Of a stretch of 64,000 bases of DNA, positions 11,418 through 33,800 are shown one piece after another. The DNA is from Elusimicrobiota bacterium (GTDB taxonomy: Bacteria; Elusimicrobiota; Elusimicrobia; Elusimicrobiales; UBA9959): NCBI GenBank assembly GCA_019135865.1, contig JAGVVD010000058.1, positions 1 to 64,000 of the forward strand. Reading direction: 5' to 3'. Numbering within the stretch: position 1 is the first letter of the stretch; each line of letters opens with the position of its first letter. The position numbers and the translations under genes are program-made. The notes beneath the pieces were generated by a model. The model was not told where the DNA came from. It searched no databases and saw nothing but the letters and a program-made list of their open reading frames with translations.

Positions 11418-11512
11418 CCCGGAGCCATTGTACAATAATTTAACCGGCCGTTCTTATTTCTGTAACACCCCCCCGCTAGAATTATTAATGCCGGGGAGGA
11501 AAGACCTTCCCG

Positions 11513-11536
11513 CCGGCGCGGGGCTGTCCGCGCCGG
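11513..11536. repeat. GC-rich hairpin in the 11418-11592 intergenic region
   Basis: Inverted repeat with 9-bp arms 11513-11521 and 11528-11536 and a 6-nt loop; a run of five T lies about 14 nt downstream on the plus strand. It is in the leader of the GYF-domain gene and could be a weak attenuator. The rest of this 175-nt gap holds only possible promoters for the two divergent genes (TAGAATTA near 11477-11484). No riboswitch was recognised. Confidence 0.4.
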
Positions 11537-11592
11537 GACGGAACTACGGATTTTTCGGCGTCTCCGACACCCGTTAAACAAGGACCGAAGAT

Positions 11593-14751: not shown

Positions 14752-15786
14752 TCATATCTCGATTATGCCGCCGCCGAGCACGCGGTCGCCGCGGTAGAAC
14801 ACCGCCGACTGACCCGGCGCGGCGCCGAACAGGGGCGAGTCCGGCGACACCGCCAGCAGTTCCCCCTCGCGCTTCACCGAACACTTCACCGGCTTCTGCC
14901 TGTAGCGTATCTGCACCGCGGCGTCGTCCAGCCCGCCGCCGGCGAGATCGTTATAGCCGGACACGCGGAAGGACCGGACGGAGGCCTCCTCCGCCGTGCC
15001 GACCCGCACCTGGTTGCGCGCCGGGTCTATGCCGGTCACGTAAAGCCTTTCGCCGCCGGCGACATTGAGCCCCCGGCGCTGGCCGACCGTATAGAAGGCC
15101 ACCCCCCGGTGGCGGCCGAGGACCCTGCCCTCGCGGTCCACGATATCGCCGGGGTTCCCGCCCCCGCCGCGGGCGGCCAGCCACTCGCCGTAATCCCCCT
15201 CCCCGGCGAAGCAGATGTCCCGGCTCTCCTTCTCGCGCGCCGCGCGCAGCCCCAGCCGGGCGGCCAGGGCGCGGACCTCGGGTTTCTTCATCCCGCCGAG
15301 CGGGAAGCGCAGCATGCCCAGGCTCTTCCCGGGTATGCAGTAGAGGAAATAACTCTGGTCCTTGTCCGGGTCAACGCCGCGCAGCAGGGCCCGGGCGGAG
15401 CCCTCCCCCTCCAGACGGGCGTAATGGCCGGTGAAAAGGGCCCCGGCCCCCATCTCCCGGGCCAGGTCCAGCAGGTAGGAGAACTTCATGTGGCGGTTGC
15501 AGGCGACGCAGGGATTGGGGGTGCGCCCTTCGGCGTAGGCGCGTTCGAAAGGCCCGATGACGGCCTTTTTGAAGAGCGGCGCGGCGTTCTTGTAGTAATG
15601 GCGGACGCCGAGTCTGCCGCAGACCTCCCGGGCCTTGTCCGCCGCCGAGGCGGCGCCGCAGCAGGAGGCCCCGCCGAACAGGCCCAGCGTGACGCCGACG
15701 GCGTCGTAGCCGGCCTCCAGGGCCAGCGCGCAGGCCACGGAAGAATCCACGCCGCCGCTCATCGCGACGACCGCTTTGGGTCTCAT
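14752..15786 (-). CDS. mnmA: tRNA-specific 2-thiouridylase MnmA
   Basis: Thiolates U34 of Glu, Gln and Lys tRNAs, with sulfur relayed to it and ATP used for activation. 344 aa. It has the PP-loop SGGVDSS (residues 10-16), the first catalytic Cys in TPNPCVACNR (about 93), the persulfide Cys in DICFAG (about 191), GHYAR, the DQSYFLY motif and FYTVGQRRGL before the C-terminal beta-barrel. All key residues are present. Its ATG overlaps the stop of the upstream lipoprotein gene as ATGA, so it is translated from the same mRNA as motA-motB. A tRNA-modification gene coupled to motor genes is unusual but may be just gene packing. Confidence 0.95.
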   Translation of the reverse strand: MRPKAVVAMSGGVDSSVACALALEAGYDAVGVTLGLFGGASCCGAASAADKAREVCGRLGVRHYYKNAAPLFKKAVIGPFERAYAEGRTPNPCVACNRHMKFSYLLDLAREMGAGALFTGHYARLEGEGSARALLRGVDPDKDQSYFLYCIPGKSLGMLRFPLGGMKKPEVRALAARLGLRAAREKESRDICFAGEGDYGEWLAARGGGGNPGDIVDREGRVLGRHRGVAFYTVGQRRGLNVAGGERLYVTGIDPARNQVRVGTAEEASVRSFRVSGYNDLAGGGLDDAAVQIRYRQKPVKCSVKREGELLAVSPDSPLFGAAPGQSAVFYRGDRVLGGGIIEI

Positions 15787-16544
15787 TCGCCGAAGCCGAA
15801 GGCCTTGAAAAGGTCTTCCTCGGGGCCCGCTGCCGGCGAGGCGGCGGCCGGCGAGGCGGCGGGTGAAGGCGCGGCCGGGGCGGCCTGGGCCGGCGCCGGG
15901 GCTCCGGGCAGCGCCTCCATGCGGCCTTTGCCCTCGCCGACCGGCGAGACTATGACGGGGCGCACCCCCTCGGCGAAGGCCAGGAAGCCGGTGTCGACAT
16001 TGTAATAAAGCCGGAAAGGGGACTCCTTCAGCTGCGGCTCGTAAGCCTTCCCGAGGTTCATTTTCTGCTGGTCCCAGCCGGGATTGTAGATAAGCTTGCC
16101 CCGGACGTCCACCTGCTCTTCGACCACCGGCAGAGAGAAGCGTATCTTGAAGAGGCCCATCGTGTCGCTGATGCCGGGCGTGAAGGAAAGGGTGACGAAG
16201 GAGGTGGCGGTCTCCTCTATGCCGAAAATATCGTCGCCGGCGGCCGGATCCGGTTCCGGGCCCGCCCGCCGGCCGGTGTCCGCGACCGCGCGCACGCTGA
16301 CGCCCTCGATAGGGTTGCCCCTGTAATCCGTGATGGTCCCCTGGATGTTCCCCTCCAGGAAAACCCTGGTCTTGACGGTGGAGAAGAAGACGAACTCCCG
16401 CTTGCCCACCACCCTCTTGGTCAGGGTGAGGTCCGTGACCCTGGCGTCGGTAAAATCGACGACCCGCAGGGTCTTCATCCCCCCGAAGCAGCCGGAAAGC
16501 GCCAGCGCGAGCAGCGGCGCGGCCAGGCGGTACTTAAGGCTCAT
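15783..16544 (-). CDS. Lipoprotein with carboxypeptidase-regulatory-like beta domain, in the mot operon
   Basis: 253 aa from ATG 16544; the frame extends further upstream, but that portion is an out-of-frame shadow of motB. The signal peptide ends in a lipobox (LALSGC, Cys about 19). Residues about 55-85 (FLEGNIQGTITDYRGNPIEG, VSVRAVADTG) look like a CarboxypepD_reg-type Ig fold, common in outer-membrane and periplasmic proteins. The C-terminus is a Pro/Ala-rich tail ending DLFKAFGFGE. ATGA overlaps at both ends tie it to motB upstream and mnmA downstream. The position suggests a periplasmic or outer-membrane partner of the motor, analogous in location to the extra motor-associated proteins of other phyla, but no specific homologue was recognised. 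Confidence 0.7.
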   Translation of the reverse strand: MSLKYRLAAPLLALALSGCFGGMKTLRVVDFTDARVTDLTLTKRVVGKREFVFFSTVKTRVFLEGNIQGTITDYRGNPIEGVSVRAVADTGRRAGPEPDPAAGDDIFGIEETATSFVTLSFTPGISDTMGLFKIRFSLPVVEEQVDVRGKLIYNPGWDQQKMNLGKAYEPQLKESPFRLYYNVDTGFLAFAEGVRPVIVSPVGEGKGRMEALPGAPAPAQAAPAAPSPAASPAAASPAAGPEEDLFKAFGFGE

Positions 16545-17206
16545 GGCCCCTCCGCGGCGCCGGCGGGCGGAACGGCGGCCGGCGCTTCCGGGTAAGGGTT
16601 GTTCTTGACGAAGAACACCACCCGGCGGTTCTTCTGGCGGTTCTCCGGGCCGTCGTTGGGGGCCACGGGATGATATTCCCCGTAACCCACGGCCGAGAGC
16701 CGCTTGGGCGCGAAATCTATGGAGAGCAGGTGTTTGACCACGCTGGTGGCGCGGGCCGTCGAGAGCTCCCAGTTGGAGGCGAACTGCCTGGTGGCTATCG
16801 GGACATTGTCGGTGTGCCCCTCGACCACGATATCGTGCTTCCCGGAGAGATTCCGCAGTATCGGCGCCACCTTCTCCAGCTTGGCCGTCATGTCCCCGGT
16901 GATCTCCGAACGGCCGCTCTCGAAGAAGGCGACCGAGCCCTGCTCCTCGAGGGTGATGCGCAGGCCTTCCTTGTCGATCTGCACCTGCCCCTGCAGCTCG
17001 CCCTTCTGCATCATCTCCTCCAGCTGGGACTTGGCGTCCTGCATGTTCTTGTTGAGGGCGGCGGAAAGGGCGTAGAGGATGACGAAAAAGCAGACCATCT
17101 CCGTCATGAGGTCGGCGTAATTGACCATCCACGGGGGCGCGGGCTCGCCGACGGGCGCCACGCGCCTGTCGTCCTCCGGGATCATTCCTTTGACTCTGAC
17201 GGGCAT
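16541..17206 (-). CDS. motB: Flagellar-type motor stator protein MotB
   Basis: Peptidoglycan-binding stator subunit of a proton-driven rotary motor; partner of MotA. 221 aa. One TM helix (about 28-50) begins PPWMVNYADLMTEMVCFF and carries the ion-binding aspartate D32, the same number as in E. coli MotB. A short linker containing a plug-like helix follows, then an OmpA-like domain (about 95-205: VAFFESGRSEI, VVEGHTDNVPI, NWELSTARA, GYGEYHPV, NRRVVFFV). The C-terminal tail is Pro/Ala-rich. It is 9 nt after motA and overlaps the downstream lipoprotein as ATGA. Presence of the Asp argues the stator can conduct ions. Confidence 0.92.
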   Translation of the reverse strand: MPVRVKGMIPEDDRRVAPVGEPAPPWMVNYADLMTEMVCFFVILYALSAALNKNMQDAKSQLEEMMQKGELQGQVQIDKEGLRITLEEQGSVAFFESGRSEITGDMTAKLEKVAPILRNLSGKHDIVVEGHTDNVPIATRQFASNWELSTARATSVVKHLLSIDFAPKRLSAVGYGEYHPVAPNDGPENRQKNRRVVFFVKNNPYPEAPAAVPPAGAAEGP

Positions 17207-17215
17207 AATTCCGGC

Positions 17216-17998
17216 CTAAACGGCCTCTTTCTTTATGGCCGCGCGGGCGGCGGGGTTCAGGTAGGCCTTCAGGTTGGCCTCGACGACGCTGGGCGTGGCG
17301 CCGCTCTGGAGCAGCAGCACGCCGCGGATGATTATCTCCTTGACGAAAAGCTCCTCCTCGGAGCGGTTCTTGAGCTTTCCTCCCATCGGCATGAAAAGCC
17401 AGTAGCCCGAGGCCAGGCCGTAGAAGGCGGCGGCCAGCGCCAGCGCCATGCGGCGCGGCACGGCCGCGACGTCCTCGATGGAGGAGAGCATCAGGATCAT
17501 GCCCAGCACCGTGCCGATGATGCCGAAGGCCGGCGCGTAGGTGCCGAGCGCGTTGAAGATCTCGCGGCCGTTCTTGTGGCGCTCGCGGATGAAGTCTATC
17601 TCGGTCTCGAGCATGTTGCGGATGAACTCGTGGTCGGCCCCGTCTATGACCAGCTGCACGCCGCGCTTGAGGAAGTCGTTGTCTATGGTCTGCACGTCGG
17701 ACTGCAGCGCCAGGAAGCCCTCCTTCTTGGCCTTCTGCGCCAGGGAGACGAAGGTGGAGACCAGCCTGGAGGTATCCTCTCCCCTGGTGGTCAGGACCTT
17801 CCTGAGCACCTTGCCGGAACTTATGACCGACGAGAGAGGGAAGTTGACCAGCAGCGCGCAGAAAGTGCCGCCCATGACTATCAGAAAGGCTTCGATGTTG
17901 AGGAACGGCTTGAAACCCGCCATGCCCTCCTGCAGGTACACGGACCCCAGAACGAAGCCCATGAAGACGATTATGCCGCTCAGAGTCGCTATGTCCAT
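17216..17998 (-). CDS. motA: Flagellar-type motor stator protein MotA
   Basis: Stator ring subunit that turns ion flow into rotation. 260 aa, four TM helices: about 5-22, 33-52, 150-172 (YAPAFGIIGTVLGMI, holding the conserved TM3 proline) and 185-205 (ending FMPMGGKL with the TM4 proline). The cytoplasmic loop (about 60-145) is the part that contacts FliG. In E. coli, R90 and E98 of this loop pair with FliG charges. Here the matching stretch reads KAKKEGFLALQSD, so the arginine appears as lysine and the glutamate as glutamine (alignment from memory). The gene sits 25 nt after flbD and 9 nt before motB. Confidence 0.93.
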   Translation of the reverse strand: MDIATLSGIIVFMGFVLGSVYLQEGMAGFKPFLNIEAFLIVMGGTFCALLVNFPLSSVISSGKVLRKVLTTRGEDTSRLVSTFVSLAQKAKKEGFLALQSDVQTIDNDFLKRGVQLVIDGADHEFIRNMLETEIDFIRERHKNGREIFNALGTYAPAFGIIGTVLGMILMLSSIEDVAAVPRRMALALAAAFYGLASGYWLFMPMGGKLKNRSEEELFVKEIIIRGVLLLQSGATPSVVEANLKAYLNPAARAAIKKEAV

Positions 17999-18349: not shown

Positions 18350-20713
18350 TTACTTGCCCTTGATGGCCCACTTGATGCGGGCGGCGAGGTCCTTCTCGAG
18401 CGCGCGGTATTTCTCCAGTTCGGCGCCGAGGACCGCGAGTTCCTGCTCCCTGGCGGCCAGCTGGGCGCCCCAGGAGGCGTCGGAGTCGGCGCGGGCGGCG
18501 CGTTCCGCGTCCAGCTGCGAGGCCAGGTCCTGCACCTGGAACTCCAGCTGCTGCGCCTTCTGCTTGAGGAAGACCACCTCGTTCTCGAAGCGGGAGCGGT
18601 TCTCTCTCTCCACGCGGAAAGAATCTTTCAGGGCCGCCAGCTCCTTCTCGCGCTCGGCGGCGTTGCCGGAGAGTTCGGCGGCCTGCCTGGCGAGATCGCC
18701 GGAACGGGTCTTGAGCTGCTCCAGTTCCGCCTCCATCCGGCGGCGGGCGGCCTCGGCGGCCGAGGCCTCGTCGGCGCGGGAGCGCAGGTCGGCGTCGCGC
18801 GAGCGCAGGTCGTCCGACAGGCGCTGAACCTCGGCCTTGAGCGAAAGCGTCTCCTCGCCGGCGGCGGCGAGGCGGGCCCTGAGGTCGGTTTCGGCCTTCT
18901 CCCACGCCTCCCTGGCGGCCGCGGTGCGGGACTGCACGTCGGCCTCGCGCGAACGCAGCTCCGCGGCCAGCCGCTGGGTCTCCGCGCGCAGCACGGCGGT
19001 CTCTTCGTCGGCGCGGGTCCGGGCCTCCTTGAGCTTGCGTATCTCCTCCGAGTATTCGGCCTCCATGCGGGCCTTCAGATTGGCCTTCATGTCGGCCATG
19101 GCGGCCTCGTAGGTGCCGCGCATCTCCATCGCGCGGCTCTCGGCCTGGAGCTGTTTCTCGGCGGCGACGCGCTCCAGCTCCTGCTGGTGGCGCTTCTGCA
19201 GGTTGAGCAGCTCGGCCTCGTATTTCTTCTGCAGGCGGGAGGCCTCGTCCTGGGCGGCCCTGCGGGCCAGGTCCAGGCGCTCCTCGTAATCGCGGGTGAC
19301 CTCCCCGGGCAGGTCGCGCTTGAGGCGCTCCAGTTCCGCGGCGTGCGCCGCGGCGGCGTTCGCGGCCTCGGCCGAGAACTGTTCGCGCAGGGTCTTGAGC
19401 TCGGCGGCCCGGGCCGTCTTCTCCGCCTGCAGCTCGGCGGCGTGACGCGCCTCCAGGGCCTCCAGTTCGGCGGCGCGGCGGGCGGCGGCTCCCTCGAGCT
19501 CCCCCCTGAGGCGCTTGTTCTCCTCGATGCCGGAGGCCATGTTCTGGGCCAGCTGGACCTTCTCGACCCGCGTCTGGGAACGCTCCTTCTCCAGCGCGGC
19601 GTTGACCGCCTGCATGCGGGAGATGAAACCCTTCATCCTGGCCAGCTCGGAGACGGCGCGGCCCTTCTCGCCCGCGGCTTCGGCGAGCCTGGCCTCTATG
19701 GAGTGCAGTTCGGTCTCGTACTTTTCGCGGAGCCTGGAGACCTCCTGCTCTTTCTCGGAATTCTTCCTGTCCGTGACGGCGCCCAGTTCCTTCTGCAGGC
19801 GGTCGATCTCGGAGACCAGTTTGTCCTCGCGGGTCTTGGCCTCGGAGAAGGACTTCTCCTCCTTCATCTTCGCGATGGCCAGGTCGGCCCGGAGCTGGGC
19901 GAGTTCCCTCTCCTTCTCGGGCAGTATCTTTATGTAACCCTCGACGGAGGCGCGCTCGCGCTCCAGGCGGGAAAGCTCTTCGCGCAGCTTGGCGCTCTCG
20001 CGCTCGAGCAGCGTGCGTTCCATGGCCGACTCGCGCAGTTCCTGCTGCACCTCGGCCAGGCGCTCGGCGGAATTCTTCAGGGAACGGACCTCGTCCTCTT
20101 TCTGGCCGATGGCCCGCTGCCACTGGGCCTTCTCCTCCAGCCAGCGGCGCTCCATCTCCTGGAGCCGGAAAATGAAATGCCCCTCGACGTCCTTGGACTG
20201 GGTCTCGCGCTCGAGCATCTGGCCCTTGAGCGTCTGCATCCAGGTCTCGCGCTCCTGCACCAGCCTGCTCTCGAGCTCCTTGATCTTCGCCTTGAGGGTG
20301 AGCCGCTCCTCCTCGACCTCCTGGTCGCGGCGTTCGCGGCGGAGCTTGTCCTGTATGTCCTTGAGCGAGGATTCCACCCTGGAGGAGAGGACCTCGTCCT
20401 GCTGGCTCTTGAGCGTGGCCAGCAGCGCCTTCTCCTTCTCCTGGGCGACGACCTTCTCCATCTCGAGCATCCGCTTCTCGAGCTTCTCCTTCTCCTCGCG
20501 GGCGGCTTTCAGTTCCTCCGCGGAAGGATCGGGCCTGGCCGCGGGGGCCTGGAAAGAGGGCATCGCCGGGCGCGGCAGGACGGGACCGCCGCCGGGCATG
20601 GGAGGAAGACCGGGACCCGCGCCGGGGCGCGCCGGCGGGGCCGGCGGCTTCAGCCCCGGGGGGAACGGGGGAGGCAGCGGTTTCTTGGGTTCTTTTTCGT
20701 TCTTGTCGTCCAT
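18350..20713 (-). CDS. Long coiled-coil protein in the motor cluster
   Basis: 787 aa, no signal peptide and no TM helix, so cytoplasmic. Residues 1-65 are proline-rich (PPPFPPGLKPPAPPARPG, then MPGGGP). From about 66 to the end it is nearly continuous Glu/Lys/Arg/Ala/Leu heptad sequence, predicted to be a rod of up to about 100 nm. Generic matches to SMC or myosin-like proteins would be composition-driven. There is no ATP-binding hinge or Walker motif, so it is not an SMC ATPase. It lies between the FliF-FliG fusion and flbD-motAB on the same strand, suggesting a scaffold or linker to the cytoplasmic face of the motor; its Pro-rich N-terminus could bind a partner domain. Start: ATG 20713; no SD close to it. 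Confidence 0.8.
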   Translation of the reverse strand: MDDKNEKEPKKPLPPPFPPGLKPPAPPARPGAGPGLPPMPGGGPVLPRPAMPSFQAPAARPDPSAEELKAAREEKEKLEKRMLEMEKVVAQEKEKALLATLKSQQDEVLSSRVESSLKDIQDKLRRERRDQEVEEERLTLKAKIKELESRLVQERETWMQTLKGQMLERETQSKDVEGHFIFRLQEMERRWLEEKAQWQRAIGQKEDEVRSLKNSAERLAEVQQELRESAMERTLLERESAKLREELSRLERERASVEGYIKILPEKERELAQLRADLAIAKMKEEKSFSEAKTREDKLVSEIDRLQKELGAVTDRKNSEKEQEVSRLREKYETELHSIEARLAEAAGEKGRAVSELARMKGFISRMQAVNAALEKERSQTRVEKVQLAQNMASGIEENKRLRGELEGAAARRAAELEALEARHAAELQAEKTARAAELKTLREQFSAEAANAAAAHAAELERLKRDLPGEVTRDYEERLDLARRAAQDEASRLQKKYEAELLNLQKRHQQELERVAAEKQLQAESRAMEMRGTYEAAMADMKANLKARMEAEYSEEIRKLKEARTRADEETAVLRAETQRLAAELRSREADVQSRTAAAREAWEKAETDLRARLAAAGEETLSLKAEVQRLSDDLRSRDADLRSRADEASAAEAARRRMEAELEQLKTRSGDLARQAAELSGNAAEREKELAALKDSFRVERENRSRFENEVVFLKQKAQQLEFQVQDLASQLDAERAARADSDASWGAQLAAREQELAVLGAELEKYRALEKDLAARIKWAIKGK

Positions 20714-20858: not shown

Positions 20859-22805
20859 TCAGCGGCCCACCTGCTGCTTGAAGGAGGCCAGCCATTCCGA
20901 CGCGGCCGGATCCCCGCTCAGCGAGGCGTATTTCTCGTAGGCGGCCACCGACTCGTCCACGCGGCCCAGGGCGTAATAGGCCGCTCCCAGGTACTGCTGC
21001 ACCTCGGCCGAGCCGGGGGCCAGGGAGGCGGCGTATTCCAGGTACTGCAGGGATTCCTCGGCCCGGCCCTGGCTGTAGAGGTCGGCGCCGGCCGCCAGGT
21101 ACTGCTGCGCCTCCGGCGGCACCGGCGCGGCGGGGCCCGGCGCCGCCCCTCCGGGGCCGCCGGACGAGAGGCTGTCGAGCTTGCGCCTGCGGTCGGAGGC
21201 CGAGGTCATGTCGACGCTGTCGATGATATAGACCTCCTGCGACTGCTGGTTGCGGGGCGTTATCCTGCCTTCGGCCTCCAGCGTCTTGACGGCGTCGAGG
21301 ATCTTGCCCTGCGCCTCGTCGATCTGGGAAACGGAGATCTCGCCGGAGTAATCGATTATCTCCCTTATCGCGCTGACGGCGCCCTGCGACATGTTGGCGT
21401 AGAACTTCTCCACTATCTGCGGGTCCGCCTTGGCTATGGCGCGCGCCACGACCTCGTTGCTTACGCTGCGTATGACCAGCTGCATGTCCCTGTCCGGGAA
21501 GGCGACCAGGTCCTCGAACATGAGCACGACCTTCTTTATCTTCTCGTAGATGTCGGGCTTCTGCGTCTTGAGGTATTCCAGGATGTTCTTCTTGATGGCC
21601 GGGTCCGCCTCGTCGAGCATCTTTATGAGGCGCTCGATGCCCCCCATCACGAAATCCACGCTGCTCTTTATGTCCCGGTCTATGGCCTCTATCTGCTCGC
21701 GCGTGGCCTGGCGCACGGTCAGGGCCTCCAGCGCCACCTTGGACTGCACCTCTATCGGCAGCATCGACAGCGCCTGCCGGGAAAGCTCCGGCTTGATGTA
21801 GCTCAGCACCACGGCTATCACCCAGGGCTCCTCCTTGCGCATCAGGAAGAGGTAGATGAGGCGCTTGAGGTTCTCCTCGTTTATGTAGGTGAACGGCTCG
21901 AATTTCTTCATATCCTCGTCCTCCGCCTCCTCCCCCTTCTGCGCGAAGGTCATGTCTATGGCCTGGTGGCCCTCGGTCTCCTTCGCCCCCTCGCCGCCGT
22001 CGCCGCCCCCCTCCTCCATCTTCTGGTCTATGTTCACCTCGGCGCCGGGCTTGGACATCAGCGCGCCTATGTACCTGCGGAAGAAGCTCCGGAGCGGGCC
22101 GAAAAGGAAGAGCAGCAGCAGCAGGAACAGCAGGGCGTAGAGCAGCGGCAGGTACACCGACGGCCTCTTGATATCCTCGAGGTAATTATAACTTTTGAAC
22201 CGGGTCGGCTTGAAAACGACGGTCGCGGCGTCCCGGCCCTTTATCCTGTAGGGGAGCAGGAAATCGTCCACGCGTTCGCGGGCCAGCGCCACCGGCTCGG
22301 GCGCCAGCGTCTCGTCGTGGATCACCGTGACCTGGAAGCGGTTTATCTCGGTCTCGGCGCCGTAGCGGGTCTCCTGTATGCCCTGCGACTGCTGGGCCTG
22401 CTGGCCGGTGGCCGCGGCCGGCGGACCCGATCTCCCGCCCATCACCGACTTCGGCTTGGGGATGCCCGGCAGCAGGAACTCGGATTCCTGCTTCTCCGCG
22501 TTCTGTCCGCCTTTCTCCTTGTACTTCTGCATCACGCCGAGGCCTTCCCGGCTCTGGTCGGACTTGCGGGCGATGATCTCCAGTTCCACGTCGGCGAAGA
22601 CGAAGGATTTCCCTTCCCCCAGTATGGGGTCGAGTATCTCCCTTTTGATCTTGGTCTCGGTCTCGCGGCGCAGCGCGTCCTGCTTCTCGATGACCGAGAG
22701 GCCGGCGCCGGCGTCGGCCGCGCCGGGGTTCTCCTGCCCGCGCGCGGGCGGGAAGAGGCCGGACAGCAGGGCCGCCGTAAGGACGATTGCGCGGTAACTC
22801 TTCAT
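20859..22805 (-). CDS. Minimal FliF fused to FliG with C-terminal TPRs
   Basis: 648 aa from ATG 22805 (an alternative ATG is 12 nt upstream). It has a cleavable-looking signal peptide (MKSYRAIVLTAALLSGLFPP), then a periplasmic part (about 25-210) that matches only the last ring-building domain of FliF: ILDPILGEGKSFVFADVEL, a Gln/Gly-rich loop, then ETEINRFQVTVIHDE. One TM helix follows (about 215-237). The cytoplasmic part (about 298-515) is FliG middle and C domains: EEPWVIAVVLSYIKPELS, GGIERLIKMLDEAD, VLMFEDLVAFPDRDMQLVIR, NMSQGAV, EAQGKIL. The last 85 residues form TPRs. Normal FliF has about 550 aa and two TM helices, and FliG is a separate protein. In the FliG motor helix the R281, D289 and R297 equivalents look like G, I and S. 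It heads the cluster with the coiled coil, flbD and motAB. Confidence 0.8.
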   Translation of the reverse strand: MKSYRAIVLTAALLSGLFPPARGQENPGAADAGAGLSVIEKQDALRRETETKIKREILDPILGEGKSFVFADVELEIIARKSDQSREGLGVMQKYKEKGGQNAEKQESEFLLPGIPKPKSVMGGRSGPPAAATGQQAQQSQGIQETRYGAETEINRFQVTVIHDETLAPEPVALARERVDDFLLPYRIKGRDAATVVFKPTRFKSYNYLEDIKRPSVYLPLLYALLFLLLLLFLFGPLRSFFRRYIGALMSKPGAEVNIDQKMEEGGGDGGEGAKETEGHQAIDMTFAQKGEEAEDEDMKKFEPFTYINEENLKRLIYLFLMRKEEPWVIAVVLSYIKPELSRQALSMLPIEVQSKVALEALTVRQATREQIEAIDRDIKSSVDFVMGGIERLIKMLDEADPAIKKNILEYLKTQKPDIYEKIKKVVLMFEDLVAFPDRDMQLVIRSVSNEVVARAIAKADPQIVEKFYANMSQGAVSAIREIIDYSGEISVSQIDEAQGKILDAVKTLEAEGRITPRNQQSQEVYIIDSVDMTSASDRRRKLDSLSSGGPGGAAPGPAAPVPPEAQQYLAAGADLYSQGRAEESLQYLEYAASLAPGSAEVQQYLGAAYYALGRVDESVAAYEKYASLSGDPAASEWLASFKQQVGR

Positions 22806-22881
22806 ATATATACGCATTTATCTTATCTTTCGCGTATTACGGCATTGTTTCGGAAATGTTCACAGAGTGTTCCATAGAAAG

Positions 22882-22960: not shown

Positions 22961-24523
22961 TCACAGCTGGCTCATGAACTGGCGCACGATCCTGTTATTG
23001 GGGTTGATCTCCAGGACCTTCTCCCAGATGACCTTGGCCTTGTCCTTCTGGTCCATCAGGAAGAAGGCGCTGCCCATGATCTCGAGCGCGGTCTCGTTGT
23101 TGGGCTCGAGCTCCAGGATGTCCTGCGCGCGCTTCATCGCCAGGTCGTATTTGCCTTCGTAGATGGCCTGGCGCGCGTCGTAGGTGCGCTGGTCGATGTA
23201 GGTGAAGATCTCCGGGCCCTCGGGCTTGCGGGTCAGCTCGGTGACGCCGGCCTCCTTCTCCACCATGTTCAGCAGCGAGAGGAGGCGGTCGTTGCGGGGC
23301 TCTTTGTTGAAGGCGTGGCGCAGGATGTTGACCGAGTTGCGCAGGTCCTTGCCGTCCACGTAGGCGATGACGCCGCGGCGGGTCAGCGTGGGCACCTCGT
23401 CGCCGCCGGTGGAGGACGGCACGAAGGAGATGGCCGTCTGCAGGCGGTCCACCATGCGGCGCACCTCGGGGTTGCCGGGATCGGCGTCCAGCGCCGCGCG
23501 CAGCTTCTCCTGGGCGCGGGTGAAGTAGCCGGCTTTGAAGTACTGCAGGGCCTGGTTGACGATCTGGCGCACCTCGCGGGTGTGCTTGGCCTTGTTGCTC
23601 TGGCCCATCTTCATCGTGATCGAGAAGCGGGTGGTGGTGCCCAGCGCGTGCACGCCCTGCGCCACGTCGAAGCCCAGGCTCCTGTACCTGATGCCCAGGC
23701 CGAAATCCGCCTCCTGTATCTCTGGCGAGCCCATGACGCCGAAGCGCAGGCCGGCCCAGTACATCGTCCAGTACTCGCCGCCGAAGCGCCAGTTCATGTC
23801 GGCGTTCTGCGGCTTGGTGAGGTCCAGGCCGAAGATCAGGCTGCCCTTGAAAAGCCTGAGGGACTGGCCCGCCTTGATCGTCAGCGGCAGCTCGTCGTCG
23901 GTGTCGCCGGAGGACATCGAGAAAACGTTCTGGACGCCGATCGCGAAGCGGTAGAGCGGGGACACCTTGTTGAGCATGCTCACGTCCACCGCGTTGAAGC
24001 TGTCGGCGGAGTCGTCGAGCGTGCGGGAGATGTTCTTGGCCATGAGGCCGAAGGCCAGGCTCTCGGAGACGTCGCGCCCCCAGGAGAAGGCCAGCGCGCG
24101 CTCGACGCTGTCGAACTCGCCGAGCGTCTGCACGTTGATTATCTCCTGCGTGGCGGGATTGACCGTGATGCCGATCTTCTCGAAGCCTGTGGACTGCAGC
24201 TGGGTCATGCTGAGGGCCCAGGTGCCCCTGGAGGTGGTGGGATGCGCGTAGGTGAGGAAGTTGAGGGTGGTATCCTCGAAGAGGGTCGCCTGCATCGCGG
24301 AGAATTCCTTGCGTTCGAGCAGGGTCAGGGCCGCGGGGTTCCAGTAGGAGGCGCTGGCGTCGTCGGCCACCGCGAAGAAGGCGCCGCCCATGCCCAGGGC
24401 CCGGGCGCCGGCGCCGTAGCCCATGAAGGCGCCGGGCTGCCCGCCGCTCTGGGCGAAGGAGGCGGCCGCGGGAACGGCAATGAAAAACCCCGCAAGGACG
24501 CACGAGCGCGCGAAGCGGCTCAT
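22961..24523 (-). CDS. PorV/PorQ-like outer-membrane barrel with C-terminal TPR repeats
   Basis: 520 aa from ATG 24523. A signal peptide (about 1-25, ending ASFAQ) leads into a FadL/PorV-type barrel (about 28-325) with the typical opening GAGARALGMGGAFFAVADDA then ASYWNPAAL, and repeated beta-strands such as GTWALSMTQLQ, FGGEYWTMYWAGLRFG and FGLGIRYRSLGFDVA. Residues about 335-400 and 440-520 are TPR-like helices (RAQEKLRAALDADPGNPEV; DLAMKRAQDILELEPNN). PorV in type IX secretion binds cargo C-terminal domains and brings them to the surface; fusion to TPRs is not the classic form. The cargo candidate is the giant protein encoded upstream on the same strand. The in-frame ATG at 24571 lies at the aptamer edge and is unlikely to be the start. 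Confidence 0.82.
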   Translation of the reverse strand: MSRFARSCVLAGFFIAVPAAASFAQSGGQPGAFMGYGAGARALGMGGAFFAVADDASASYWNPAALTLLERKEFSAMQATLFEDTTLNFLTYAHPTTSRGTWALSMTQLQSTGFEKIGITVNPATQEIINVQTLGEFDSVERALAFSWGRDVSESLAFGLMAKNISRTLDDSADSFNAVDVSMLNKVSPLYRFAIGVQNVFSMSSGDTDDELPLTIKAGQSLRLFKGSLIFGLDLTKPQNADMNWRFGGEYWTMYWAGLRFGVMGSPEIQEADFGLGIRYRSLGFDVAQGVHALGTTTRFSITMKMGQSNKAKHTREVRQIVNQALQYFKAGYFTRAQEKLRAALDADPGNPEVRRMVDRLQTAISFVPSSTGGDEVPTLTRRGVIAYVDGKDLRNSVNILRHAFNKEPRNDRLLSLLNMVEKEAGVTELTRKPEGPEIFTYIDQRTYDARQAIYEGKYDLAMKRAQDILELEPNNETALEIMGSAFFLMDQKDKAKVIWEKVLEINPNNRIVRQFMSQL

Positions 24524-24538
24524 ATACGCCCGTATATG
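24521..24538 (-). promoter_or_regulatory. Start-codon-sequestering hairpin of the PorV-like gene
   Basis: Inverted repeat CATATACG / CGTATATG with 2 nt between; if the inner pairs open, a 6-bp stem with loop CGGGCG. The last three bases of the 3' arm are the AUG, and the only SD-like bases (GGGCG) lie in the loop. A second hairpin, GCATTA/TAATGC with a 4-nt loop, is at 24549-24564. Together they form a plausible translational expression platform for the riboswitch just upstream. Confidence 0.6.
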
Positions 24539-24571
24539 CGGGGCGAAAGCATTAGTGATAATGCGTTCCAT

Positions 24572-24849: not shown

Positions 24850-27800
24850 TCAATGTATGACGCCGACCTTGCGCAATATCGTCTTATTGCCCCTGGAACT
24901 GGAAGCCTTCACCCTGACTATATAACCGCCCTTGGAGACGAAGCCTCCCAGCGCGTTCTTGCCGTCCCAGAGCACGGAATTGAAACCCGGCTTCCCCCCC
25001 TCCCCGCCGGCGGAGAAGGAGAATTCCCTGACCACGTAGCCCAGCAGGTCGTAGATAGTGATCGTGACCTCGGCGTTGCTTTCAAGCATGTAGGTTATGG
25101 CCGTTTTCCCCTCGGGGCCGCTCTTGCGCGTGTCCACCGGGTTGGGATAATTGCGCACATTGGAAAGTATCTCGCCGGCCGCGCCGGTGGCGACGGGCGT
25201 GTTCAGCACCGACCACGACGAGAAGACGCCGGCGTTGCTCATCGCGCGGGCGCGGTAGAAGAAGAACTGGTCCCTGGGCCGCGGAGCCTCGCCCGCGAAG
25301 GCGGGGCTGCCCACGAAGTAGGAAGGCGCGATGCCCGGCACGAAGCCGAGAGGACGCCAGACCACGTTGGCCTGCAGGTCGTCGGCCGGGCCGCCCCTCT
25401 CCTGTATCTCGTAACCGGCCACGCCGGAGACACGCTGCTCCGACGGGTCCCATTTCACTTCGTAGGTGGTCTGGGCGGCGGCCCCGGAGGCCACCTGCGG
25501 CCTGGGCTCGCCCGGCACCGTCGGGGCGTTGGGATCGTAGCGGAAGACGAACATCGGGCGCACCGCCGAGGCGGTGAGGGTGGAGCCGGAGATGGAGACG
25601 AAGCGGGCGCTGAAGATGGCGGCCCCGTCGGAGACCGGCTCGCCGGAGAGCGCCGAGCCCATGTGGGCGATGGGCGCCGAGCCGCGCAGGCCGCGCCCGT
25701 TGTCCGACTCCGAAGGCGTGACCAGCAGGGTATTTGGCTCGCCCTGTTTGCGCGAGAGCCTCATGATCTCGCTGCCCACGTAGATCAGGCCCGGCAGTTG
25801 CAGCTGGGAGGAGTCGGCCACCTGTATCTGCGTGTCGGTCGGCGTCACCTCGGCGGCCAGGCGCGTGATATTGGGCACGGGCAGCGCCAGGCCGGTTATG
25901 ACGGCCGCGGTGACGGGGTCCCCGGCGGCCAGCGGCGCGAAGGCGGCGGCGCGCATGCCCTTGAAGGCGGCGGCCTGTACGCCGGCGCTGCGCCAGGAGC
26001 CGCTGAGCGAAGCGGGCTCGTCGTAGAAGCGGCCGGCCGCGACCTCGTAATAGCCCTCGACCGCGTTGATGGTGGGCAGCATGGCCTTCAGCGTCTGGCC
26101 GCTGCCGGTCCAGGCGGAGGGCACGAAACCGCGGTCGGAAGCGGGGACCAGCTGGGCGGGGTCCAGCAGGTCGGTGCCCAGCATCATCTGCCGGTCGCCG
26201 CCGGCGGTGATGAAGACCTGGTCCGGGATGCCGTCCCGGTTGAGGTCTATCTCCATGACCTTGCTGCCCACCAGGTCCACGGTCGGCACCGAGTCCCCGG
26301 TCAGCGAGACCTTGTTGAGCCGCGGGTCGCTGCCGGCCGAGAAATTGTCCGGCACGCCGTCGCCGTTGACGTCGAGCAGAGGAGGATCCCCGGCGCAGGC
26401 GGCCGGCCACGGCGTCCCGTCGGGACAGATCCAACGGGTCTGGTCCGGCAGGTAATTGCCCTGAGAGTCCTTGCACATGTTGTTCCTGACGAAGGCCGGG
26501 TCCTTGCCGTTGTTGCAGGCGGCGTCCACCAGCGCGTAGGCTGGATAGCCCACGGCCGCCTCCGGTATGCCGGGCCCGGCCAGCGTGATGATCACGGGCG
26601 CCATGCCGGTGCTCACCGAGACGGGGGGCACCACCAGCGGGGTGATGAGCACCTCGGCCGAGTAGACCGGCGGCTGCAGCAGGGGGTCGGGCACGGCGCT
26701 CAGGCTCTCCAGGCCGCCGGGGGCCTTGAGATCTTCGTAGGCGGCCAGCGAGACGCCCACATAATCGCCTATGGTCGTGGTGGAAGCGCCCACGTTCCCG
26801 AGCACGAAGATGGTCCGGCCGGAGGTGCCGACGCGCAGGCGGGGCAGGCCGCCGGAGGTTATGGACACCGTCGCCACGCCGTTCTCGAAGCCCGAACCGG
26901 CGCCCGCCAGGAAGACATGGCTGGAGACGCCTATCTTTTCGTCGCCGGCGCTGTAGATCTGGTTGGCGTCGGAATCCAGGAAGAGGCTGATGGAGACCAG
27001 GTCGCAGGCCTCGGCGCTCTCGCAGCGCGCGTCGCCGGTCTGGGTCAGGCGCAGCGCGCCCAGGTCCACGCTGCCCTGGTCGGTGCGGAGGTCCAGGCGC
27101 AGGAAGGTGACGGCCCTCGCGCCGGGCTCCACCGTCTCCGGCGCCATGGTAAGGCCGGAGATCTTGAGTATCGTGCCTCCCACCAGGACCTTGCCGGTCT
27201 CGAACGGCAGCGCCTGAGAAGTGGTGCCGTTCGGCAATTGAGGGAACTGGCTCACCCCGACATTGACCATGCCGCTGACCGAGTCCGGGGGGGCGTCTAT
27301 GACGATGGCGTTGGCGGCCGGGATCTTCGCGCCCACGCCGTTGCCGACCACGGCCGCGTCCCCTATGTCGTAGGTGAGGAAGTAGGTCTGCTGCGACGGG
27401 GAGAGCAGCTGCGGTATGGAAAGCTGGACCAGCCTGACCCGGTTATTGTCGTCGACCTGGTCGAAGAAGTCCACCTTCTCCACGGTGACGCCGCTCGACA
27501 CGGCCAGCAGCGGCGAGGAGGAGACGCCCAGCACCATGCTGCGCTCCACTATGCGCAGCGAGGCCGCGGAGGTGGAGATGGAGGCGTAGCGCATCAGCTC
27601 CAGGCCGGCCACGATGATCTCGCCGCTGGCGGGGAAGTTCTGGGTGGAGGCCACCACCAGGTCGAAGGGCATCGCGGCGTCGGTGGAGATGGCGACGGTC
27701 GTGACGGTCTTCGGCGAGGAGATCGGGGTGTCCGCCAGGTCCAGCGTGTCGTTGGCGTTGACGTCGCGGTAGATACGGACGAACTTCACGTCGCGGTTGC

Positions 27801-30800
27801 GGCCGGAAGGTTTGAGCACGTCCACGGAATAGCCGGTCTTCTCCACCATCAGTTTGCGCCAGACGCTCTGCGAGGTGTCGGTCTTCATGTTGAAGCGCAG
27901 CACCGGCACGTTCGTCTGGCCCTGCACCACGCTGCCGGCCGAACCGGCGATATCGTTGACGCCCATGGTCACCACGCTGGCCGCCTCCGTTATGACGGTG
28001 AGCGCGGAAACGGCCGGGAACACTCCCCCGGCCTGCTTGCCGTCCGGTACGGCCACGGTGAAATAGTCCGTGGAGTCGATGGAGAGGCCGAGGGTCTTGC
28101 CCACCTGGCCGAATTCGGAGATGTCCGCCGTGACGTAGAGCACCGTGGGCACGGAACTTATCACCAGGCCTTCGTTGAGCCTGACCAGCGTGGTCCGCTG
28201 GTTGAAGAAGTCGTTGCCCGCGGTCAGCAGGTTCGGGTAGACGCCTTCCACCGAGCCGGTGTCGTTGGCGACGCCGTCGTTGCCCGGGTCCTTCCAGATC
28301 TTCACGCTGACGATGTCCGAATCCACGCCCGTGCCGCGCAGGTCCAGCCGCAGCGCTTCCAGGACGGCCGTATTGTCCGTCGACTTGGTCCTGAACTCCA
28401 GGCGCAGCATGGGCACGTTCTTGGAGTTCTGCAGCGCCGAGCCGAGGGCGGCGTTGGCGACGGCGATGGAGAGCGTGTCCGTGGTGGGCACGATGACGAA
28501 GCCGGGACTGGCCACCGGGGTGGTGACCTCGACGGTGTGCCCCACGCCGGAGGGACCCGTGACCACCGAGAAGGGGCTCTGGCCGTCGAGCTCGATGCCC
28601 GTGATCTGGTTGAGGTTCTCTACCGCCGGATGCGAGAAGAGGGCCGTGGGGTCCATATCCAGCGTGACGAAGAAGGTGACCGGCGACTCCAGGCTCTTCA
28701 CCAGCGCGTAGTCCCGGCCCTCCTCGCTGAACCGGAGTTCGGAGAGGGAGCCGGCGAAGACGCCGGAGCTCACCTGCAGGTCGGCGGTGGGCTCGCCGGC
28801 GGAGTCCAGGTTCAGCACCCCGTCGCCGTTCATGTCGCGGAAGATGCGTATCCGGGCGACGTCGCCGTCCGAGCCGTTGAGCGGGTCCAGGGCCAGGCGC
28901 CTGAGCCTGATGCTGTCGACCTGGATCTCGAAGTCCGAGGCCGAGAGATGCATCAGGAAGGCGCCGCGATACTTGCGGCCCTGCCTGATCTCGGGGCCTA
29001 TCACGGTCCCGGAGGAATGGACCACCGGCAGGCTGCCCAGCCGGCCGCGGACGATATTGAGCAGGGCGCCGGGCTCGCCGGGCAGCAGGGAATCGTAACT
29101 TACGATCTCGTTGTCCAGTATCGCGTAGCCCGAGGCAGGCAGGCCCAGCGTGGAGGAGACCGGCCACAGCGGGTCGTCATTGAGCGTGTTTATCTCCATC
29201 GTCAGCCGCGGCGCCGGGTACATGACGCCGTCGGCGTCGGTGAAGATCGGGAAAGCGGCCACCGTCAGCGTCTGCGGCTTGGGCACGATATTGTGCAGGT
29301 TGGAGACGAACAGGAAAGGCTCCGGCCGCTTGTTGGACAGCGCCGTCTCGGAGATGGAGTCGGCGACGGGGTCGTCGTTGCCGTCGGCCACCATCGGGAA
29401 GCTCTGGGTCTCCAGTATCAGGCCGAAAGTGCGCGGCTGGTTCGTGACCGGGTCGGTGGGCACGGCATTGTCGTTCATGTCCGCGGCCAGCAGGTAGCGC
29501 GACGGCTGGGCCAGCACGCGCTGCACGGTGGCGGTGGACTGGCCGAACTCTATCTTGGCCAGGTTGAAGGCGCCGCCGGTATTGAAGGCGGCCGAGGCGA
29601 CGAAGAGGTCCGCGGCGTCGAGCTTGTAATTGGCGTTGACGTCGCGGTAGAGGCTGACGCCGTAGCAGTCGTCGGTGACCAGCCCGTCGCCTACGGCCGT
29701 GCCCGTGGCCCGCACTATCAGCCTGCGCCAGCGCGCGTCGGACTTCTCCGCGCGCATGGCGAAGGAGACCAGCGTGTTGCCGGTGGTCCCCTGCATCAGT
29801 TCCAGGCTGGCGTTCACGGACTCGGGCGAGATATAGACCTGGTCCGGGTACTCCAGTATGGTCTGGATATTGCCGTTGGTCAGGTTGGGCTCGATCCCGA
29901 CGTTCAAGGGGTTGAAGAGGTCCGGCCATTCCACCTTGAAATAATCGGTGGAGCGCATCTCGAAACCGAGCCGCACCTGCGAACCGGCCGCGGCCAGGGC
30001 GTCCAGGTCGTAGGCGATTATGTATTTCTTCTCGGCGATGGTCAGCTCGGTGCCGGGCAGGCCCCTGGCCACTTCCGCGGCGCTGCCGCGCAGCCTTACG
30101 CGGGCCTGGCCGGAAACCACCGCTCCCGAGGACCAGTCCAGCTCGGCCGTGCCGTCGGCGCCGCGCGTGAGGCCGGTGAAGCGTCCGAGCCCTTCGTCGT
30201 AGCCCTCGTAGTAGACCACTTCCTTGAGGTTCTCGTTGGTCTGGTCGTCGCCCAGCACCAGCCGGCCGGGCGCGATCGGGGGCAGGTAGGGCTCCTCCGC
30301 CGGCTTCTCGGCCGCTATGCCCTTGAAGGGCTGGAAGTCGGCCACTTCCAGGTATTCCGTGGCTCCTATGGGCAGGCCGGAGGTCAGGCTGGACCAGGGG
30401 AAACGCTGGATCTCGCCGTCGGGCGTCACCAGCTGGTCCGTGCCGGGCTCCAGCAGGGCGTTGCCGTTGATGTCGTGGTAGACCTTGACATTGGCCACGT
30501 CGGAGACCTTGTTGTTCTTCACGCCGCCCTGCGAGGAATGGCTCCACCTGTCCAGTTTCAGGCCGGTGACCACGGCCGCGCCCTGATTGGTCTGGAAGGT
30601 CAGCTGGGTCACGGCCACGTCGGTGGAGCCCTGCACCTTGGCGTCGGTGGCCATATTGAACCTGGAGGTAATGCGGGCGGTGTCGAAGGTGGGCACCACC
30701 GTCACGAAAGAGGACTGCATCAGCGTGAAGGCCGGCGGCTTGCCCGTGCCGGGGACCGGGAAGATATTGCCGGAGTTGATGATCGCGGCGTGGGTCTTGT

Positions 30801-33800
30801 CGAGCACGGCGGAATTGGAGTAGTCGAAGACCACGTAATAGGTCCTGGTGGAGGGGTCCACGGCGCCGCAGCTGACCCGGTCCACGATATTGAGCCTGAC
30901 GCTGCCGCCGGAGAAGACGGCGGGATTGTTCGGGTCGGTGACCTCGGTATCGTTGCCGGACTCGAAGGTCCCGTTGCCGCCGGCGTGGTTCTCGCAGCCC
31001 TTGGGGTTGGTGTCCATGAAGAGGCGCACCGCGGTGATGTCGCCGTCCGAGCCCTCGCTGCCGCCCTCGCTTATGCGGTTGACCGTGATATAGTCGAGCA
31101 CCGCCTCGAACTCGTTGGTCCAGACGGGCACGCGCAGCATGCCGGCGTATTTCTGCCCCTGCATGACCGTCGGGGTCTGCACGCCGTCGACGTAGGCCGC
31201 GATGTTCACCCGCGTGGAGCCCGAGAGCGTGTACATCTGTGCCGGCGCGCGCCTGACCGCCGAGGTGGCCGTGAACATGGCGAAGTTGTTGACCGCCACG
31301 GCTATGGGCGTCGCCACGGGCGAGACTATCACGTGCTGATTGGGCGCCTGCAGGCCCAGGCCCAGGCTGCGCTCCACCTCCAGGTCGGCGGCCGTGGAGA
31401 TCCTGACGGCGAAGTAGTAGTCGCGGCTGCCCTCGACGATCAGGGACTCGTCCGGGTGGTTCACGTCCAGGTCCCCGAGCACCCAGTAGGTGCCGGCCCA
31501 GTCGGCGAAGGTTGCCGAGGCGACGAGCACGTCGGGGCTGGTGCAGTTGCCGAGCACGGCCGCCTCCGGCGGGCAGAAGTTGCCGTTGCCGGTGGAATCG
31601 GCGTAGAGTTCCAGGCTCTTCACGTCCGAGGCCGGCAGGTCGCCGGTCTTGAGCACCTTGAACTCCTTCAGCCGGGCGTTGAACCCGGAGCCGATCGGCA
31701 GCGCGCGGGCCGAGAGCTTCCACATCAGGACCGGGTAAGGGGGGTCTATGACGCCGGAACCCTGGAAGAGCTCTTTCATGCCGGAGAAAATGGTGCCGGC
31801 GAGCAGGTTCTGCTTCTCGGTACTGGGGTCCGGGGCCATGTCCGTGGGCTGTATGACCACGCCGCCCACCACCACGTCGGCGTCCGAATCGGAACCCGGC
31901 GCGGGCGGGTAGGCTCCCCACTGCGCCGTGGGCCAGGGCCGGCCCGCGTCGCCAGTATAGCCGAAGATCTTGGCCGGGTCGTCGTCCGGCAGGCCCGCCG
32001 TGGCGTAGTCCGTGACGTTGATCTTCAGGCCCGCGGTCATCAGGTCCGCGCGCACGCCCAGCAGCGGGTAGACGCCGGGGTCTGGGTCGCTGTCCGGCGA
32101 GAAGACGTAGTAGGTCGTACCGGCCGTGTTATGCGCCGAATTCTCGCGGTTGACCAGCGAAGCCGAGGTGGAGTTCACCGAGAAGACTATCTTCCCGGTG
32201 TAGTACTGCCCGTTGGACGGATCGCCGCGTGCCACGTTGCCGAAGCGGTCCCGCGCGTTGACGCCCCAGGTCACGGCTGCGCCGTTCTCGCTGCGGGAGG
32301 CGGCGAGGCTCCTGGTGTCGTCGGTCACCTTCAGCGGGGTCGCGCTGGTGAAATTGTGGTGTATCGAGAAGTACGCGGCCCGGGCCGGGGTTATGACGAC
32401 GTCCTGCGAATTGTCGGCCAGCGGGAAAAGGCCCGTATCGCCGACCAGGGCCGAGACATTGAGCGTGCCCGTGCCCGCTTTGGTATCCCAGGCGTAGATG
32501 ATCATCTCCGTCTCGTTGGCGTTGATGTCGAACTGCTTGTTGCTGACCAGGTCCAGCTGGGTCCAGTCCGGTCCGATGACCAGGGGCCGCGCCGGGTCCC
32601 GTCCCACGCGGATACTGGAGGCGGAGTCGAAGAAGCAGTGCGTGTTCACGTCCGTGGAGGTGATGTTGCCGTACGCGTCGCGCAGGCTCAGCATGATCGG
32701 CGTGGGGACCTCCACGCGGACGTCGTCGGAGGGATCCAGCGGGGTCCCGCCGTTGCCGGTGACCGTGTACTCGACCGTGGTGCCGGCCACCAGCCGCCGG
32801 ACCGGGGTGATGAAGTCCAGGCGCGCGGGCTGGTTGGGCCTGACCGTGTAGGTGGCGCTGACGGCGTCGAAGCCGGCCGCCGTCACCGTGACGGTGGAGG
32901 TCCTGGCCAGCGTGTCGTTGACGAAGACGTCCGCCTTGTACTGCCCGCCTGGGATCATCGCGTAGGCGACGGCGGGGTTGCCGCCCGGGACGGAGTCGGG
33001 CAGCGGCGAGGCGAATAGCACCGTGCCGGTGGAATCGGACTGCAGGTCGAAGAGGCGGTCCTGACCGGCCGGCTGCGGACTGAAGTTGCCGAACTTATCC
33101 TCCACCGAGAGGAGGAAGGCCTGCGAGGTGACGCCGGCGGTCAGCTGCTCCGCGGGCGCGTACAGTCCCAGCCTGCCGCCCAGCGAATTATCCCTGGCCA
33201 CTATCTCCTCGGACTGCTCCGCGCGCGACCAGGCGGGCACCGCCGGGACCGAGGCGATGAGGACGGGCATGGTGGTCGAGCTCGCGCCGTAGTCGAAGGA
33301 GGCGCGGGTGTCCAGGTAGTAGAAGGTCGCGTAGTACTGGCCCAGCGGTATCGTCAGCGTGTCCGTGGAGGCGGAGAAGGCCGGCGGATCGTCCGAGGCG
33401 CGCGCCGGCGAGAGAGAGAAGTCGTGCGCGTCCAGGAAGTCGCTCGCCGTCCTGGAGGAGGCCAGCGCCACGGTCACGGTCATGGTGGCCGGGGTGGGGT
33501 TCTCGTAGGCGTCGCGCAGTTCCAGTCTCAGGATGTTGTTGAGGCCGTAGACCGGGTCGATCGGCTCCCCGGCCTTGAACGACATCTTGGCGTTGTCGAA
33601 CCTGAGCCGGTCGGTCACGGCCGGGTTCACCTTCAGCGCGTGCACGGCGTTGGCGATGGAAGGCACGCCGGACGGATTGCCGGCCGTCACCGTCCAGGTG
33701 GAGGCCCGGCCGTCGGTGAGCGGGGTGGAGGCCATGAAGTCCCGGTAGAAGAAGGAGACCCTGTCCGAACTGGGGGTCGGACAGAGCACGGGATCGTCCA

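Follow-up and report, generated by a model that had tools for sequence, protein, structure and literature searches.

A FliF-FliG fusion encoded beside MotA and MotB in Elusimicrobiota without a flagellar gene set: candidate rotor subunit of a non-flagellar motor

A gene that joins parts of the flagellar proteins FliF and FliG in a single chain raises the question of what such a protein does in bacteria that apparently have no flagellum. The gene is located in a window of 64,000 nucleotides (positions 1 to 64,000 of contig JAGVVD010000058.1, assembly GCA_019135865.1) from an Elusimicrobiota bacterium. For the Elusimicrobia, a clear absence of flagellar genes relative to the sibling clade has been described (PMC7031533). 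A sequence-only reading of the window had proposed one polypeptide with a signal peptide, only the last ring-building motif of FliF (RBM3), one transmembrane helix, the FliG middle and C-terminal domains and TPRs. It took this protein for an MS-ring/C-ring hybrid stripped of the domains which house the export gate and the rod, and hence for part of a rotor that carries no flagellum. The nearest described precedent is the FliF-FliG fusion of the Chlamydiaceae, which has about 330 aa, two transmembrane helices, an RBM2-like part and homology to FliG-M, lacks RBM3, the SpoIIIAG-like domain of FliF, and occurs together with FlhA and an injectisome (PMC4768692, Bergeron 2016). In the literature searched, mostly non-subscription papers, no earlier description of the Elusimicrobiota fusion system was found.

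The gene is a real open reading frame (20859-22817, minus strand) that encodes 652 aa when started at ATG 22817. Relatives start at what is here the fifth codon, and this sequence comparison backs ATG 22805 (Table 1). Pfam profiles detect FliG_M (residues 325-386, E 4.6e-9) and FliG_C (residues 415-520, E 4.6e-26), both well over the cut-off, and TPRs at residues 580-633. In a phmmer comparison, residues 307-522 match the middle and C-terminal domains of Thermotoga maritima FliG (PDB 1lkv) with an E value of 1.2e-29. FliG_N is absent, as would be expected of a chain that already joins FliF and FliG. Concerning RBM3, Pfam finds no such domain in the window protein itself, the periplasmic part being too divergent. 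The corresponding profile YscJ_FliF_C (PF08345) matches 8 of 25 relatives (best E 7.2e-6) and, near the cut-off, one paralogue of the class B described below. For residues 26-266, an AlphaFold2 model computed from 48 sequences reaches pLDDT values of 81-97 for most strands and helices of the RBM core. When this model was compared with the PDB by Foldseek, ranks 1 to 18 were all FliF MS-ring/RBM3 structures (best match 9a67, E 1.9e-6; 7bk0, E 7.6e-4, prob 1.00), which bears out the RBM3 assignment made from the sequence alone. The collar insert is shortened and of low confidence in the model, and contains a conserved LPGIPxPKS motif. G240-P241, located after the core of the transmembrane helix, is invariant. 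In the full-length model FliG stands at the top of the structural matches; its FliG_C part superposes on T. maritima FliG 1qc7 with 0.9 A (TMt 0.96) and on MotAB-bound FliG (8ucs_H) with 1.2 A. Independent profile, sequence and fold evidence thus agrees on the domain order first read from the sequence and rules out chance domain matches. Here one polypeptide accounts for both the MS-ring and the FliG ring, and FliG_N is not needed. A shorter copy of 346 aa in L140 (RIFOXYA2_FULL_47_53) consists of FliG M/C and TPR, with no RBM3 and transmembrane part in the same frame.

Table 1. Position of the rotor fusion, its domains and the neighbouring cluster genes in the window
Feature	Position	Strand	Basis
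FliF(RBM3)-FliG(M+C)-TPR fusion, rotor subunit	20859..22805, extendable to 22817	-	domains, homologues, fold
Signal peptide / first hydrophobic segment MKSYRAIVLTAALLSGLFPPARGQ	22734..22805	-	sequence direct; N-terminal helix in model
Periplasmic RBM3 (FliF ring-building motif 3)	22203..22706	-	PF08345 in relatives; AlphaFold2 and Foldseek
Single transmembrane helix VYLPLLYALLFLLLLLFLFGPLRSFF, residues ~219-250	22077..22163	-	sequence and model
FliG middle domain; GG motif kept, EHPQ (FliM-binding) is EEPW	21660..21845	-	Pfam and alignment
FliG C-terminal (torque) domain; E486 equivalent to E. coli D288, R281 equivalent is G	21258..21575	-	Pfam, alignment, superposition
Cytoplasmic C-terminal TPR tail	20871..21116	-	Pfam and model
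PorV/FadL-like barrel of the outer membrane, TPR domain at its C-terminus	22961..24571	-	PorV_fam profile
Giant secreted protein, Big_3-type Ig-like domains	24850..64000, on to contig position ~73,506	-	
FlgD_ig / T9SS sorting-like C-terminal domain of giant	24898..25116	-	profile search
Cytoplasmic proline-rich coiled-coil protein, 787 aa, cluster member	18350..20713	-	
MotA stator subunit; K at the R90 position, Q at the E98 position, both channel prolines present	17216..17998	-	
MotB stator subunit; TM helix bearing the proton-binding Asp (NYADLMT), followed by plug and OmpA-like domain for peptidoglycan binding	16541..17206	-	
Conserved lipoprotein of outer-membrane type (lipobox LSGC) with a carboxypeptidase-regulatory-like segment; cluster member	15783..16544	-	

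The host genome (2.95 Mb in 59 contigs, completeness score 100%) was searched for the remaining parts of a flagellum. Searches for FlhA, FliM/N, PF01514, flagellin and rod proteins each matched in four flagellated control genomes. In the host genome, profile searches gave no match for FlhA, for the FliM/FliN C-ring, for RBM1-RBM2 of FliF (YscJ_FliF, PF01514), for flagellin (PF00669) or for rod/hook proteins (PF00460), and the injectisome homologues SctV/FlhA and SctJ were likewise unmatched. The claim of a hybrid without the domains that house export gate and rod is therefore in accord with the genome (no PF01514, PF00460 or FlhA), and the absence of the flagellar set supports a rotor that carries no flagellum, whose rotation we infer. 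Among 199 genomes of the phylum, only one (G032) is positive for FlhA, and FliM/FliN and PF01514 exceed the cut-off solely in the same genome; matches below the cut-off occur in G178 and G184 for FliMN and in G090 for YscJ_FliF. A survey of co-occurrence with flhA revealed FliG_C in 59 of the 199 genomes, 58 of them without FlhA. These 58 hold one to five FliG_C genes each, nearly all in frames of fusion size (about 480-700 aa). G032 (L163, L164) is alone in having FlhA and full FliF together with FliM/N over the cut-off. Its only FliG_C match is a canonical FliG of 356 aa, and no fusion is present.

One could suppose that the fusion is a functionless, degenerate remnant or paralogue of flagellar genes, most of the canonical ones being missing. 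The open reading frames are intact, though, strong conservation, synteny and repeated paralogy extend across many genera and families, and the one FlhA-bearing genome among 199 encodes a canonical FliG but lacks the fusion; this makes a remnant exceedingly improbable. As to a degenerate paralogue beside full-length flagellar genes, which the sequence-only reading had named as the finding that would speak against it, conservation and the lack of a canonical set in the host (no full-length FliF, FlhA, FliM/N, rod protein or flagellin matched) exclude it.

The fusion gene belongs to a cluster with the order giant protein, PorV/TPR barrel, fusion, proline-rich coiled coil, MotA, MotB and lipoprotein, which is conserved in 71 named genomes. 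The PorV/TPR gene, whose product in the window scores 108.9 bits with the PorV_fam profile (cut-off 90), is the direct neighbour of the fusion gene in 60 of the 63 loci that could be tested. Downstream of the fusion, the coiled-coil gene was found in 41 of 45 loci, MotA plus MotB in 34 of 45 (not found, within the flank examined, in 11) and the lipoprotein gene in 29 of 45. Upstream, a giant-type C-terminal domain is encoded within 4.5 kb in 40 of 59 loci. The coiled-coil protein has a proline-rich N-terminus and, in close relatives, a conserved C-terminal end of the RLKWAxKG type; it could not be assigned to a known family, as its HAUS1/SMC-type matches, the only ones obtained, are spurious. 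Several classes carry extra coiled-coil/TPR cytoplasmic proteins between fusion and coiled-coil gene (414-2,103 aa, often very large; e.g. L056:10659-15428, L057:10204-15012, L060:2565-8876). Giant, PorV/TPR and fusion genes occur in the same order in L143 ('bacterium CS1-C068') and L146 ('Clostridia bacterium CSMAG_1339'), records that probably are mislabelled or represent genomes of sister lineages.

Further, paralogous fusions form a second class. Class B fusions have about 500 aa, no TPR tail and no coiled-coil match. They pair with MotA/MotB, often with two tandem MotBs, and mostly with PorV/TPR; several of their loci include a giant-type tail gene. In the host, a B-type RBM3-FliG fusion is cut by the end of contig C52 and a MotA-MotB-MotB-TPR set ends contig C8 (L161:7211-10192 and L038:1-1422, both minus strand). 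Comparison with L183 and L186 suggests that the two pieces are probably one operon split by the assembly. In L041 a histidine kinase gene (HisKA, HATPase_c; 11053-11997, minus strand) lies between a PorV/TPR gene and a B-type fusion and is a possible regulator of the neighbouring motor. A FliG tree with six canonical FliGs placed these in one clade (99/98) separate from the fusions, class A fusions in one weakly supported group (81/53) and class B fusions in several; being unrooted and with long branches, it cannot tell ancestry from secondary reduction. L148 and L149 (Latescibacterota, Gemmatimonadetes) were considered as fusions and rejected, since both retain R281 as well as the EHPQ histidine and cluster with canonical FliG. 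Adjacent MotA/MotB genes, PorV/TPR barrel and giant protein, together with conservation throughout the phylum and paralogous motors, probably turn what might seem a domain oddity into a machine.

The composition of these clusters bears on the question of what load such a machine would drive. The load might be intracellular, with the cytoplasmic coiled coil being turned on the TPR tail, for polarity or to rotate the cytoskeleton, and the outer-membrane genes being only co-regulated. The cytoplasmic location of the TPR tail would suit such a drive, as would the frequency of the coiled-coil gene (41/45 clusters) with its proline-rich N-terminus and recurring C-terminal motif. Still, the most constant neighbour of the fusion is PorV-TPR (60/63), and B-type motors lack both TPR tail and coiled-coil match and yet often have PorV. 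We therefore regard an intracellular load as very unlikely.

Concerning the motor itself, the residues of stator and rotor are informative. By sequence, flagellar MotA/PomA are the closest matches of the cluster's MotA. Of 69 MotA sequences, 68 carry K or R at position 90, and all 69 have the two channel prolines. The proton-binding Asp of MotB is kept in 63 of 66 sequences. Among the three others, one probably reflects a wrong ORF start, and two are copies from one species having a second MotB. On the rotor side, 106 of 106 class A sequences have Glu where E. coli FliG has D288. The position of R281 is occupied by Gly in 97 of 107, and the D289 equivalent is often lost. The EHPQ histidine is lost in 107 of 107 class A rotors and the glutamine in most, as expected in the absence of FliM. 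In the flagellum, MotA contacts FliG through R90-D288/D289 and E98-R281 (PMC12505986). Judged by the residues present, the R90-D288/D289 contact is plausible in the Elusimicrobiota motors, and the E98-R281 contact is not. The torque contact is thus altered, due to the loss of R281 and often of D289 in class A. Co-variation of FliG R281 and MotA E98 proved not to be diagnostic: Q and E are about equally frequent at the E98 position, and the MotA of the canonical genome has Q as well.

Loss of the R281 equivalent and often of D289 would also fit a static scaffold, in which a non-rotating ring of the fusion anchors a coiled-coil or TPR assembly or forms an envelope-spanning channel like SpoIIIAG, whose ring RBM3 alone resembles. 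The SpoIIIAG ring of sporulation lacks FliG domains, has no known stator and is not known to rotate. Here, in contrast, a dedicated MotA/MotB pair with proton-binding Asp, prolines and the base at position 90 intact accompanies the gene throughout the phylum, and the acid at the D288 position is invariant. A static role is therefore improbable.

The largest gene of the locus extends beyond the window. On the contig (C54, L037), one uninterrupted ORF encodes the giant protein with about 16,200 aa; giants at the same place in relatives have 11,836, 12,524 and 14,446 aa. Its C-terminus matches FlgD_ig above the cut-off (30.8 vs 27) and Por_Secre_tail below it (18.7, cut-off 23). In some families, e.g. 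L109-L118, no giant is found beside the motor, so that its presence there is not essential. Some hot-spring Endomicrobia have a stand-alone tail domain of 130-150 aa in its stead. The giant is accordingly a frequent, not a universal, member of the motor locus.

The reading we prefer, to which we give about an even chance, is that the rotor of an ion-driven, non-flagellar motor consists of one component, with the fusion as its subunit, and that this motor is driven by MotAB and brings about a gliding-like movement of the giant. RBM3 domains would oligomerise into a ring, and MotAB, anchored to peptidoglycan, would turn this ring via the acidic site of FliG. In the cytoplasm the coiled-coil protein may bind to the motor, possibly via the TPR tail, and so position or brace it. 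From the RBM3 ring, torque would be passed to the periplasmic TPR domain of the PorV-TPR protein, possibly with participation of the lipoprotein. By way of PorV-TPR it would move the giant on the cell surface in a gliding-like manner, comparable to GldLM acting for SprB in Bacteroidota. Counting against gliding is the presence of up to five motors per genome, which is more than a gliding machine needs.

The link to type 9 secretion (T9SS) invites another reading. The host encodes a SprA/Sov-like protein of 1,794 aa (L160:5143-10527, minus strand, contig C43) beside two lptF/lptG-like permease genes. It matches SprA/Sov in three stretches (E 1.2e-34, 118.9 bits vs a curated cut-off of 200). A PDB sequence search with this protein gave no match, nor did the SprA_N model, which was silent in the control too. 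SprA-like proteins of about 1,800 aa, below the curated cut-off, are found in 162 of the 199 genomes, among them every one of the 59 that have FliG_C, and homologues occur also in gut lineages without FliG fusion; PorV-family proteins are present in 177 of 199. As the main rival to the preferred reading we consider a secretion motor, in which rotor and MotAB energise export or surface assembly of the giant via SprA/PorV in a T9SS-like manner and so do the job of GldLM/PorLM. PorV-TPR and a giant with T9SS-like tail adjoin the rotor gene, a SprA-like translocon is present in 59 of 59 FliG_C genomes, and the paralogous motors, of which some are accompanied by a PorV and a giant tail of their own, point to dedication to particular cargo. 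The first domain of GldM was not found above the cut-off in any of the 199 genomes, a weak argument as no control genome matched either. Against this, SprA-like proteins occur in 103 further genomes that lack any FliG_C match, so that the translocon in general is independent of a FliG-type motor. We judge secretion unlikely as the function, even though it deserves more weight than a static scaffold or an intracellular load.

By its membership, the Elusimicrobiota system is neither a flagellum nor an injectisome nor of the Chlamydia type; it would work like the rotor-stator of the flagellum. With the flagellar motor it has homologous RBM3, FliG M/C and MotAB in common, including stator residues and FliG acidic site. 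It differs in that FliF and FliG form one chain which lacks RBM1, RBM2, the first transmembrane helix and FliG_N, and in the absence of FliM/N, export gate, rod and filament. Like the Chlamydiaceae protein (PMC4768692), it is a naturally occurring fusion of FliF and FliG whose periplasmic part is shortened, and its hosts are not considered to be flagellated. Unlike that protein, it keeps RBM3 and both FliG M and C, has one transmembrane helix after a signal peptide and an added TPR tail, and is encoded in a cluster with MotAB. The injectisome retains the export apparatus and is not known to contain MotAB or FliG. Both it and the Elusimicrobiota system are relatives of the flagellum without filament and without part of the machine, but here the opposite half is kept, rotor and stator, and the export apparatus is missing. 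T9SS and gliding of Bacteroidota share with it a PorV-family barrel and, putatively, a SprA-like translocon elsewhere in the genome, a giant surface protein with T9SS-like tail and, alongside these, an ion-driven motor of the inner membrane. A FliF/FliG rotor with MotAB would take the place of GldLM here, and the SprA match stays below the curated cut-off. To our knowledge, no FliG-based rotor with a dedicated stator is known outside flagella.

If the ring rotates, the system would be the counterpart of the injectisome, a rotor and stator without export gate. Possibly, at a little less than even chances, it represents a third flagellum-related machine, the motor half without the export half, which exists in several paralogous copies and moves or loads giant T9SS-like proteins through PorV-TPR. 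RBM3 and FliG in one chain, without RBM1/2 and FliM/N, constitute a natural minimal MS-ring/C-ring on which it can be tested which parts torque needs. In the Elusimicrobiota, where comparison with a sibling clade showed flagellar genes to be clearly absent (PMC7031533), the motor could account for surface movement and could also power surface proteins of extreme size. It also bears on the order of events in flagellar evolution, i.e. whether rotor-stator or export apparatus came first: RBM3-FliG together with MotAB might preserve a rotor-stator that predates the flagellar export apparatus.
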